From positions 1 through 42,423 of the forward strand of contig RZYK01000003.1 in assembly GCA_009930355.1 (NCBI GenBank): a stretch of 42,423 nucleotides of DNA, given 5' to 3'. A program made the translations under genes and the position numbers. The DNA comes from Campylobacterota bacterium. Its GTDB lineage: Bacteria > Campylobacterota > Campylobacteria > Campylobacterales > Sulfurospirillaceae. Below are positions 890 through 11,280 of the stretch, in pieces (position 1 is the first letter of the stretch; every line of letters starts with the position of its first letter). The notes under the pieces were generated by a model. The model worked only from the letters and a program-made list of their open reading frames with translations, ran no database searches and was not told the origin of the DNA.

Positions 890-916
890 TTGTATTGCCT
901 TTTGCTTCAGGGTTTT

Positions 917-933
917 AAAGTTAAATTATATAA
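917..933. other. Candidate attL core, TAAAGTTAAATTATATA
   Basis: Identical 17-mer at 42303-42319; lies between the host gene and the integrase 3' end. Confidence 0.7.
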
Positions 934-939
934 AACATA

Positions 940-984
940 TTTTAAGACCGCCTTGTCATGGGGATTTCAAAGTGGTCTTAAAAT
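940..984. terminator. 11-bp perfect inverted repeat ATTTTAAGACC/GGTCTTAAAAT, possible bidirectional terminator
   Basis: 940-950 pairs with 974-984; AT-rich flanks; just past the integrase stop. Confidence 0.5.
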
Positions 985-4087: not shown

Positions 4088-4200
4088 TTAACATTTTTTA
4101 TTGGTTCAATGTTCATGTGTTTTTGTTTCTTGCTTCTTTTTCTCTTTTTGTAGAAAAATAAAAAAACCATACATGTTAAAATACCTGCGATATACATCAT
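4072..4200 (-). CDS. 42-aa small membrane protein (MMYIAGILTCMVFLFFYKKRKRSKK...)
   Basis: Own translation; one TM segment then basic tail; packed between neighbouring ORFs. Confidence 0.5.
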   Translation of the reverse strand: MMYIAGILTCMVFLFFYKKRKRSKKQKHMNIEPIKNVKWWAR

Positions 4201-4201
4201 G

Positions 4202-4363
4202 CTACTCTCCCAAATCATTTAGTGGTGTTGCGGATAGCAATATTTCGTGCATTCCCTCTTGAATTTCATCCTCGCTATCTGCTTCAACGACTCTTTCGAC
4301 CTCGATGTAGCAAAGCTCTCCATCTTCTTCTGTTTCATATGAAAAGACACATAAAAATTTCAT
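4202..4363 (-). CDS. 53-aa acidic protein (MKFLCVFSYETEEDGELCYIEVERVVEADSEDEIQEG...)
   Basis: Own translation; AAAGGAG ribosome-binding site upstream. Confidence 0.55.
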   Translation of the reverse strand: MKFLCVFSYETEEDGELCYIEVERVVEADSEDEIQEGMHEILLSATPLNDLGE

Positions 4364-4486
4364 ATCATTCTCCTTTTGAGTTTTTAAAAGATAACACCGT
4401 GCAAAACCATTTTTTGCTCAAAACGTGTACTAAAGATATAATTGTTGAATGCTTTGGTGTTATCGTTTAAAAGCTCTTTTGGAGAA

Positions 4487-4592
4487 CGCATAGGTGGTCG
4501 GACTCGAACCGACAGTCCTACCTCTTATCTGCACCATGCAACGGTAAAAACCGTATGAGAATCGAACTCATTAGTCACCATTGACCTATGCG
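4487..4592 (-). ncRNA. tRNA-like element X: closing stem (11 bp if extended to 4485-4594), canonical T-arm GTCGGTTCGAGTCCGAC, extra hairpins
   Basis: On - strand: AACGCATAGGT...ACCTATGCGTT closure; GTCA/TGAC, ATGAG-TTCGATT-CTCAT, ACGGT-TTTT-ACCGT and the T-arm. Confidence 0.5.
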
Positions 4593-4603
4593 TTTGTTTT
4601 ATT

Positions 4604-4705
4604 TAGTAGCCACAGGACTCTCACCTGTGGACGGCAACCAGTTTCTAATATCATAGTCGAATTGCCACTATCTCGTTTTAGCGTGTCTATCTTCCACCAC
4701 TACTA
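4604..4705 (-). ncRNA. tRNA-Leu-like element W, degenerate or atypical
   Basis: On - strand: TAGTAG...CTACTA closure; GTGGAAGATAGACACGCTA resembles the tRNA-Leu D-arm region; GGCAA...TTGCC and CCACAGG...CCTGTGG stems. Confidence 0.5.
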
Positions 4706-4765
4706 CCCTGCCGTCACCCCGATAGCTCTTGTGACCGATGATTCAGTGCGCTGTATTCACAGGGT
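4705..4765 (-). ncRNA. Third structured element V abutting W
   Basis: ACCCTG/CAGGGT closing repeat with internal ACTGA/TCGGT or GTCAC/GTGAC stems. Confidence 0.3.
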
Positions 4766-4767
4766 GT

Positions 4768-5289
4768 TTATTTTGCAACGAGAGTAATTGAGGGAATGTT
4801 TTTAATCATTTCCTCTGCACTCTGTTTTGTCTCGTAGTTAAAAATGCCGATAAGGCTATAATCAATCGTAGGGTATCTGTCTTGCTTGTAGGTCTTTCTT
4901 GCCCCAAGCTCAAAGATTATTTTTCTTTCGTGAAATTCAGGGTAGCATGTTCTTGCAACTTCTACATGTCGCTTTCTGCGCTTGTCAAATTCTTCAACAT
5001 TAATTGTCTTTGGAAGCACCTGCTTGATGCCAAGGACTATCATTATGTCGTTCAACATGTAAAATGCTTTTGTTGCCTTGCCCCCATTTTTGTGAGTATA
5101 AAGCGTGAAGATGGCTGTTTTTCCATCTTCTTCACTTTCAAACAAGAAGCGTATGCCACTTGTGCCATTTTTTGAAACAACATACTTTGCGAGTTTAATT
5201 ACACCACGATATACTCCTGAATCCATAATCGCATTTTTCATAAAGCCATCGGTGACTCTTATTGAATCAGGGTTTGCTGTAAAAATCAT
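4768..5289 (-). CDS. ssDNA-binding-like protein, paralogue of the next gene, lacking an acidic tail
   Basis: SGVYRGVIKLAKYVVSKNGTSGIRFLFES... aligns by eye with 5300-6016. Confidence 0.5.
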   Translation of the reverse strand: MIFTANPDSIRVTDGFMKNAIMDSGVYRGVIKLAKYVVSKNGTSGIRFLFESEEDGKTAIFTLYTHKNGGKATKAFYMLNDIMIVLGIKQVLPKTINVEEFDKRRKRHVEVARTCYPEFHERKIIFELGARKTYKQDRYPTIDYSLIGIFNYETKQSAEEMIKNIPSITLVAK

Positions 5290-8363: not shown

Positions 8364-9017
8364 TCAGCTTTCGCTTTTTAATTTTCCCTCTTCAAACCAA
8401 TACCAAACGTCAGATTTGATAATTGTGTTTTTAATTTTTTTGCCTACTTTTGCGGAGTGAATATCTTTAATAAAATATTTTTCTCCGTTGCATTGCCAAT
8501 CCACAATTACAATCCAACCATTAACTGCTTTTGCTTTTGATTGGTAGCCTAGCGAGCATGCAACCGCTTCATCCCCTGACGTGTTGGCGTGGGCATAATT
8601 CCCTGACGTGTTGGCGTGGGCTTCATCCCCTGACGTGTTGGCGTGGGCTCTATACCCTGACGTGTTGGCGTGGGCTTCATCCCCTGACGTGTTGGCGGTA
8701 TCTGAATATGTTAGATTTTCGTACACCATTTTAAAGTGTGCTTTAAACATATTCCCGATACTAATAGATGAATCAATTTTTAATTTATTTGTCGCTACTT
8801 TGTCGTCACTTTCATCAATATCACCAAGAGCCTCAACTTCTGCATATTTCGCATTTGGAACAGGAGGGTAATAACCAAACACATCAAGGGGCATTTTGCA
8901 AAAGTGAAGCCCTGTATTACATGTACTAGGATTTACATCTTCTTCAAAAGTTTTTCCTAACTCAAATTTATAACCACGACATGACAAATCTTTGTCAAAA
9001 CCTTTATAACCTTTCAT
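8364..9017 (-). CDS. DUF7666-like phage protein with nonapeptide (ANTSGDEAH) repeats
   Basis: N-terminal MKGYKGFDKDLSCRGYKFELGKTFEED...STCNTGLHFCKMPLDVFGYYPP; central ANTSG repeats. Confidence 0.7.
   Translation of the reverse strand: MKGYKGFDKDLSCRGYKFELGKTFEEDVNPSTCNTGLHFCKMPLDVFGYYPPVPNAKYAEVEALGDIDESDDKVATNKLKIDSSISIGNMFKAHFKMVYENLTYSDTANTSGDEAHANTSGYRAHANTSGDEAHANTSGNYAHANTSGDEAVACSLGYQSKAKAVNGWIVIVDWQCNGEKYFIKDIHSAKVGKKIKNTIIKSDVWYWFEEGKLKSES
8574..8698 (-). repeat. Five 27-bp tandem repeats inside the DUF7666-like gene
   Basis: CCCTGACGTGTTGGCG starts at 8574, 8601, 8628, 8655, 8682. Confidence 0.95.
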
Positions 9018-9248: not shown

Positions 9249-10262
9249 TTATGCGCTTAACTTTTCAAGACCTAAAAGTTCTGCTATAATTTCAAGCTCA
9301 CTGAAAGGTATTTGATGGCAACCTACCGTTAAAACTCCATTTTCAAGTGAATTGACGGTGTAGTGTCCTAAGCTCATGCCGTCAATACTCTCATTTCTTT
9401 GAAGTCTGCGCCATAAACCTTTTGCCACTGTTGTTGGGATTTTCGCACCGTGTGAAGTTTCGATATTCTCGCCATCATCGCTAAGTCTTAAAAATGTGCC
9501 TCTATTAAAAGAATCAATAGTTAAGCCGTATCTTCTTGCAACCTCTTCAATTTTTCTGAATGCAATATAATCATCTGAACGGTAATTTCTTTTTTCACCA
9601 TTTCGCCACAATCTAACACTCTCTGCATTGTATTTTTCAAGAAAGTCTTTGTTATCTTCGATTAATTTCATCGCCTCTTTATGAGCTTTTGCATGTTCTC
9701 TTTCTGCTTTTTTGCGTGCCTTTTCGGCTTTGATTTTCTCTTCTTCACTCAACCCCAGAAAGAACGCAATAACATCATCAATATCGTGATTGACTTTTTC
9801 TAACGCCTTAAGCCAGTCCACCTTGATATTCAAATACTTCACATAAGCTTTTGCATTGTTAATAAGTGCAAAAATTTCATTTGAGTAGCTTCTCGTACGT
9901 GCTTTGATGTGCTTTTGGGCATAAACAAAAATCTCTTTTTTCATGTGATTTAAGTTTGCCTCTGTACTCTCTTCTATGTTAGGTATAAATATTTGCTCTT
10001 TATGGTTTGTGGCGTATTCCGCTTCTTGTTGGTGCTTTGTTGTAGTGTTTGAGTATTTATCGGTACTCAACAAAACGACATTTTTGTCTAAATCAATTTG
10101 AGCAATTTTTGTACGGTATGAATACAGGTAAGAAATACCGTTATAAACGCTCACGCTCGTTCTGTCCCCTGTCGAGTATGTACCATGTGCGCCTTGATAA
10201 CCGTTTGCCCATATATGCGATAATTCGCTTGAAGTTTGATAACACATTTTTTTTCTTGCCAT
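9249..10262 (-). CDS. DUF8033-like conserved phage protein with coiled-coil centre
   Basis: SELSHIWANGYQGAH...SVYNGISYLYSYRTKIAQI...KYSNTTTKHQ pattern. Confidence 0.6.
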   Translation of the reverse strand: MARKKMCYQTSSELSHIWANGYQGAHGTYSTGDRTSVSVYNGISYLYSYRTKIAQIDLDKNVVLLSTDKYSNTTTKHQQEAEYATNHKEQIFIPNIEESTEANLNHMKKEIFVYAQKHIKARTRSYSNEIFALINNAKAYVKYLNIKVDWLKALEKVNHDIDDVIAFFLGLSEEEKIKAEKARKKAEREHAKAHKEAMKLIEDNKDFLEKYNAESVRLWRNGEKRNYRSDDYIAFRKIEEVARRYGLTIDSFNRGTFLRLSDDGENIETSHGAKIPTTVAKGLWRRLQRNESIDGMSLGHYTVNSLENGVLTVGCHQIPFSELEIIAELLGLEKLSA

Positions 10263-10848: not shown

Positions 10849-10942
10849 GATAAATCCTTTAAAATAAGTTTGTTAAACGCTACACATAGGGCTTAACAAA
10901 GATATAAAAAAGTTGGAATGGTATAAGCTCTTCTCGGCTTAC

Positions 10943-11057
10943 GTTCTCTCGTATGGCGCATATTGTTTTATAGTCCTCACGCTTTCAAAAGGTCGGACTT
11001 GAACGTATCGTGTTCATCTAGCTGACTTGCTAGGCGGTCATTTGTTTGACTGAGAGA
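10943..11057 (-). ncRNA. Multi-hairpin tRNA-like/leader RNA element Y upstream of the left operon
   Basis: TTCTCTC...GAGAGAA closure; GTCA/TGAC, CTAGC/GCTAG, TGAAC/GTTCA, AGTCC/GGACT, TATG/CATA stems; contains GTTCAAGTCCGACC. Confidence 0.4.
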
Positions 11058-11280
11058 ATTATTGCATAATGTAGTTAAATTAAAACTTAAAAAATATTGC
11101 AATTTGTGGTAATTTCCCAAAAAGAGATTTGTGAGAGTAGCAAAGGGGTAAAGTCCCTTATATGTATATATACACATAACACACGTATAAGGTTAATATG
11201 AGTAATAGAGTAATACAGGTATATGTTAAAAGGTTATATTGTGTATTTAGTAAAATAGTTAATTATTAGTAAAGATATGT

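Follow-up and report, generated by a model that had tools for sequence, protein, structure and literature searches.

A modular array of structured RNA elements was identified at positions 4390-4765, on the minus strand, of a 42,423-nucleotide (nt) stretch of DNA from a Campylobacterota bacterium (contig RZYK01000003.1 of assembly GCA_009930355.1). This stretch, listed as contig 136 in a draft genome of 2.5 Mb, is referred to below in its whole length as the window. The array contains four elements in the order V-W-X-U. Comparison with relatives indicates that W and X are RNAs built on the frame of a transfer RNA (tRNA), with a structure that is kept by selection, and that they are not decayed tRNAs. 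The RNA families recur in other phages, stems covary, the W insert is replaced in a syntenic relative, and the modules are reshuffled between phages. The favoured reading, to which we give a probability of about 0.45, is that constant frames carry diversifying effector inserts in an early-operon array. The window belongs to a temperate phage or prophage and encodes an integrase, a CI-like repressor, a RecE-like exonuclease, SSB-like proteins, a DnaC-like loader, a terminase and a portal protein. The array lies in its leftward early operon, in the untranslated gap between a 173-amino-acid SSB-like gene (4768-5289) and a 53-amino-acid open reading frame (4202-4363). L- and G-numbers designate the related loci or contigs compared with the window.

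The W-family was collected by scanning viral contigs with the D-arm of W itself (GTGGYGGAAnATAGACRC), a survey that shows presence and not frequency. The pattern matched 108 stretches; 94 of the 104 distinct D-arm matches were parsed, most of them with 7/7 acceptor pairs and, as in tRNA, a T-stem abutting the acceptor. As a control for bias, T-arms were also located via their loop sequence only, the acceptor pairing being left unselected. The acceptor was then paired at 94.3% in the 35 loci of the GGTGRRAGTCC T-loop class and at 93.7% in the 18 loci of the GGTATCRAATCC class, versus 57% and 53%, respectively, when the 3' strands were shuffled. Some members of the second class retain A after the acceptor plus ACCA. 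Covariation was assessed on 31 sequences with the insert removed, namely the rows of the 35-locus class (window included) and L272; two rows of L248 and the rows of L249, L287 and L291 were excluded, being either near-duplicates or unable to close. In this alignment 97.3% of pair cells of the acceptor, D-stem and T-stem are kept. Double changes affect 150 cells; shuffling yields 48.4 ± 5.5 (0/500), and slid controls did not exceed 30. The middle D-stem pair, free in the search pattern, is C-G in 23 sequences, U-A in 7 and U-G in 1. W itself has a short D-arm without G18G19 and a T-loop, TGAGAGT, without TTC; D-loop GG and T-loop TTC are missing from the W class as a whole. The absence of TTC had been recognized in an earlier sequence-only reading of the window. 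That reading also described an 8-nt anticodon loop and a variable arm in W; both lack conservation and turn out to be part of the insert. Note that in L214, at 4172-4566, a perfect inverted repeat of ~58 bp flanks a W-like element read from the opposite strand; the repeat reaches the contig end, and the structure may be either an assembly artefact or an invertible segment.

The insert lies between D-arm and T-arm and ranges from 38 to 270 nt across the W-family. No shared sequence was seen when family inserts were compared, and no conserved anticodon arm is left in them. The most direct view of its replacement comes from L272, the closest relative found, which has the same gene order as the window. 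Its W shows compensations in acceptor, D-stem and T-stem relative to the window copy, and the insert is replaced by 81 unrelated nt with 29.6% identity, the level of shuffled sequence; X, next to W, is 89.4% identical between the two. A module named Y behaves similarly in the sister phages L006 (5782-5894) and L007 (3756-3865): its ends are identical (GGTGAGTAGTCAAGTGG ... GGGCTACTCAC) and its middle has 32.3% identity, in loci where V is 98.4% and the U copies are 100% and 98.5% identical. Conservation of the frame together with replacement of the insert between sister phages is counted in favour of the effector-insert reading.

L272 also carries the 173-amino-acid SSB-like gene, followed by a canonical tRNA-Met, two tRNA-like elements, W, X, U, U and V. 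The closing stems of the two additional elements (9301-9487) are very stable (z -3.65 and -3.64); both elements have no evident anticodon arm and a canonical-looking T-arm, GGGAG-TTCGATT-CTCCC. X extends slightly beyond the 4487-4592 first proposed for it and has a D-arm-like stem where a normal D-arm had been reported lacking. The last pair of this stem is C-G in the window and U-A in L272. The D-loop AATGGT has GG and the T-loop TTCGAGT has TTC. The X insert carries hairpins, in one of which a pair is changed on both sides in L272, an observation that rests on gap placement; a hairpin with a 7-nt loop stands at the anticodon position, is kept in L272 and has CGA placed there by the Rfam alignment. 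A weaker, partial relative of X is found in L034 (E 0.039), and a search with the X D-arm pattern retrieved mainly ordinary phage tRNAs.

V is of another kind. The sequence-only reading had grouped it with tRNA-like elements, an assignment that does not hold because V is a conserved three-way junction. A same-genus BLAST of the region matched G010 exactly over V, with compensated closing-stem pairs, and scanning viral contigs with patterns and searching with covariance models extended the set to 13 loci; among the matches listed for a loose V pattern across genome contigs nearly all are chance. In a MAFFT alignment of twelve sequences, 52 cells are changed on both sides of the pair; the shuffled alignments gave 17.3 ± 2.8 (0/500), and slid controls never exceeded 10. 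P1 is variable, GAATA and CATCG are invariant, and P3 follows GTnnC/GnnAC with a loop ending in CGGG; P2 does not vary, so its pairing (CAG/CTG) is inferred. A -10-like TAYAAT hexamer occurs at most 25 nt upstream of V in 4/13 loci (L034, L213, L214 and L215; background 1.4%, P 2.5e-5), these occurrences not being all independent since L213 and L214 are related. V lies mid-operon in the window, L026 and G294. The promoter-like hexamer near some copies suggests that V starts some early transcripts and is found inside others. Beside V, L212 (114-231) and L213 (879-984) share an element T with CAGCGGGTCGCTACCGTGATG, similar to a stretch in L247, and the array of L034 includes a tRNA-Trp(CCA)-like gene (908-983, minus strand) with a poor D-arm, for which the best model is tRNA-Sec (30.6 bits).

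The three closed elements proposed on the minus strand by the sequence-only reading are borne out in V, W and X by these comparisons, but they are not the full set. The fourth, U, came to light through its relatives, which are located after V in G010 and L007 and before it in L026. It is a further RNA family, whose core (also given as CATTCAACA...AATGGTTTTG) is conserved in at least five other loci. Homologues with a compensated closing stem are present in L005, L006/G010, L007, L026 and L272, in tandem pairs in G010, L007 and L272. A partial match in G163 (29.5 bits) and a pattern match in G325, which is GC-rich and does not close, were treated as chance. The order of modules differs between phages, being V-W-X-U in the window, V-U-U-Y in G010, U-V in L026 and W-X-U-U-V in L272, and several loci carry many modules in a row; by these sequence criteria the modules are structured RNAs kept by selection and shuffled in order. 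In several phages they are separated by a linker resembling GAGCTTTTAA. Such motifs, picked post hoc, have a density of 0.85/kb near V versus 0.08/kb elsewhere in the same loci. Assignment of the linker as boxA is not supported, the host rrn leader being devoid of the linker motif.

Folding energy and standard models detect the array poorly. X folds better than 199/200 shuffles (z -2.67); the signal of W is weaker (z -1.76), and that of V taken by itself is unremarkable (z -0.69). ARAGORN called no gene in the window. None of V, W, X and U reached the gathering score in Rfam 15. A relaxed-threshold scan gave X a sub-threshold match to the tRNA model RF00005 (18.6 bits; gathering 29), X being the only element that came near tRNA in the gathering and E-value scans of the region; W did not match RF00005 even with E as high as 10. 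Models of transfer-messenger RNA (tmRNA) had no gathering-score match. Since energies are modest and the ARAGORN and Rfam gathering scans empty, the case rests on relatives: folding energy alone would not prove the elements, which are established by the alignments of V and W, with compensatory changes in their stems, and by the syntenic relative of X. The V and W families are almost certainly real structured RNAs, and X very probably is one.

Table 1. Positions in the window of the array elements, their parts and the leader-like stretch.
Feature	Position	Strand	Sequence and supporting data
V, three-way-junction RNA	4705-4765	-	conserved in 13 phage loci; 97.9% of cells paired in 12 aligned sequences
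V layout			P1 (ACCCTGT/GCAGGGT) - GAATA - P2 (CAG/CTG) - ATCATCG - P3 (GTCAC/GTGAC) - G
W, tRNA-frame RNA	4603-4706	-	family in dozens of phage contigs; syntenic relative L272
W acceptor	4706-4700 / 4609-4603	-	GTAGTAG / CTACTAA; 6/7 pairs, first pair G-A
W U8-like T	4699	-	U8-like spacing
W D-stem	4697-4695 / 4685-4683	-	GTG / CAC; loop GAAGATAGA
W insert, hypervariable, replacing anticodon and variable arms	4682-4631	-	52 nt; comparison with L272
W T-arm	4630-4610	-	CCACAGG-TGAGAGT-CCTGTGG; covarying T-stem in family
X, tRNA-frame RNA	4485-4594	-	RF00005 18.6 bits; L272 homologue; z -2.67
X P1, closing stem	4594-4585 / 4494-4485	-	AACGCATAGG / CCTATGCGTT
X D-arm	4585-4574 (stem 4585-4583 / 4576-4574)	-	GTC-AATGGT-GAC (stem GTC / GAC); compensated pair in L272
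X T-arm	4513-4497	-	GTCGG-TTCGAGT-CCGAC; 2 extra nt between T-arm and P1
X-U linker	4465-4484	-	CTCCAAAAGAGCTTTTAAAC; motif GAGCTTTTAA
U, fourth structured element	4390-4464	-	closing stem GATAACACC/GGTGTTATC; core AAGCATTCAACA ... AATGGTTTTGCAC
Leader-like structured stretch, start of early operon	10900-11080	-	AGTCC..GGACT, then AATATGCGCCA

The effector-insert reading leads to a mechanism that is, as a whole, tentative. The array would be transcribed together with the early genes, and host enzymes that handle tRNA, namely RNase P and the enzymes of the tRNA 3' end, would recognize its frames and excise and protect discrete stable RNAs. Activity and diversification would reside in the inserts, which would most likely bind a putative host target in a phage-host arms race and be replaced quickly in response to changing hosts. 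V and U would be companion RNAs, and V may be cis-acting where it begins an early transcript. A more speculative extension is that these elements represent a large unrecognised class of phage RNA, an RNA display system in which a constant tRNA-like chassis, in shuffled arrays, presents a rapidly replaced insert that acts in trans against diversifying host targets. The W-family is found in dozens of phage contigs, has no Rfam 15 match and is missed by ARAGORN, and is probably absent from phage annotation. If frame plus insert is functional, the design would let a virus vary an RNA in a novel manner on a host-compatible scaffold. V stands apart from this family as a phage RNA that is itself strongly conserved.

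Several observations weigh against this reading. The inserts are mildly structured (mean z -0.82; 6/63 below -2), and their longest antisense matches to their own phage average 8.8 against 9.1 expected, so that antisense action on the own phage was rejected; weak structure and chance-level antisense leave room for a neutral spacer. The lack of D-loop GG and T-loop TTC weakens the part of the mechanism played by tRNA enzymes for the W class, CCA is encoded in only few W-family members, and part of the conservation of the W-family D-arm is built in by its use as the search pattern. The sequence comparisons show identity and structure; transcription, processing and function are inferred.

The main rival, which we consider rather unlikely, assigns the elements a role in cis: the frames would be processing or stability signals in the polycistronic early mRNA (tRNA punctuation), the inserts unconstrained filler, and V and U similar signals, V possibly as a put-like RNA of processive antitermination. 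The modules are indeed co-directional with the early genes and lie in untranslated gaps, V directly follows promoter-like sequence in four loci, insert folding is near random, and put RNAs are ~70 nt long and located downstream of early promoters (PMC9378689). However, V is mid-operon elsewhere, many modules stand in a row at several loci, the V three-way junction is not a pair of stem-loops, and filler does not account for inserts that are wholly exchanged between sister phages while the frame stays. Less probable still is that the elements are decoys, tRNA mimics that sequester host defence or modification factors binding tRNA. Selection on tRNA-like geometry, the phage setting and a diversification suited to an arms race are consistent with decoys, but the elements, having no anticodon arm, cannot mimic the substrates of anticodon nucleases, and the W class is also devoid of the usual elbow bases. 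That the elements are working, unusual tRNAs that decode, their insert, an intron or an enlarged variable region, being removed or tolerated, appears very improbable: the CGA of the X loop and the ACCA encoded in some relatives would fit, but comparison of the inserts leaves no conserved anticodon arm, no intron family matched in the Rfam scans made, and D-loop GG and TTC are missing from the W class. Decay of tRNA genes, suggested by the sequence-only reading and by the tRNA-Leu-like and other tRNA resemblance of elements that ARAGORN rejects, is contradicted by compensated pairs in the stems of acceptor, D-arm and T-arm, by conservation in dozens of contigs and by L272, where the canonical tRNA-Met stands beside W and X and not in their place. 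The idea that the RNAs derive from tRNAs and no longer fit a translational tRNA thus fits W and X, as structures under selection, and not V.

Elsewhere in the window, the leader-like stretch that opens the early operon has a structured core (AGTCC..GGACT, then a part also given as ATGCGCCA) that is 77% identical in G010/L006, and it is 88% identical over 178 nt in L272. A DUF7666 gene with tandem NTSGxxAHA repeats is present in the window (8364-9017, minus strand) and in L200/L201, and directly follows V in G294. BLASTN of the array region and its relatives against annotated phages and plasmids gave nothing useful, and a protein search of viral contigs with the neighbouring SSB-like gene returned no match.

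The array elements can be compared with several known RNAs. Searches of open-licence literature turned up no description of such tRNA-like phage RNAs, though preprints or subscription papers could already cover the W-family. W follows tRNA-Leu (RF00005) in the order of acceptor, U8-G9, start of the D-arm and T-arm, and differs from it in that an insert differing between relatives occupies the position of the anticodon arm with its 7-nt loop. tmRNA shares with the W-family a tRNA-like acceptor and T-arm and a long insert in place of the anticodon arm. In contrast to tmRNA, the W-family D-loop is tRNA-Leu-like (GGAAnAUAGAC), the W acceptor has no G-U pair and the inserts share no sequence; tmRNA models gave a gathering-score match in none of the scanned sources, and one 11.4-bit fragment. 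Intron families had no match in the Rfam searches run. YrlA, a non-coding RNA with a tRNA-mimicking domain comparable to the W-family frame, was reportedly described from bacteria and phages by Chen et al. in 2014. Its family, confirmed as accession RF02553, has no gathering-score match in the W-family sources, and positions 4400-4850 are likewise without one, even with E as high as 10; Ro60/TROVE did not turn up among ten window proteins or among the eight proteins of a further scan, neither search being aimed at Ro60. Skipping-rope RNA (RF02924) is likewise a structured phage RNA, but it matches none of V, W, X and U. A copy is found in L229 (4685-4787, minus strand), directly beside a W-family member. 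The put RNAs of phage HK022, ~70 nt long, lie downstream of early promoters, one per early operon, and consist of two stem-loops (PMC9378689). V resembles them in its ~60 nt, its conserved unpaired bases and its probable position at the 5' terminus of some early transcripts, and differs by its closed P1, P2 and P3 three-way junction and by mid-operon copies. By this analogy V could work like put, although it falls outside the two-stem-loop definition.
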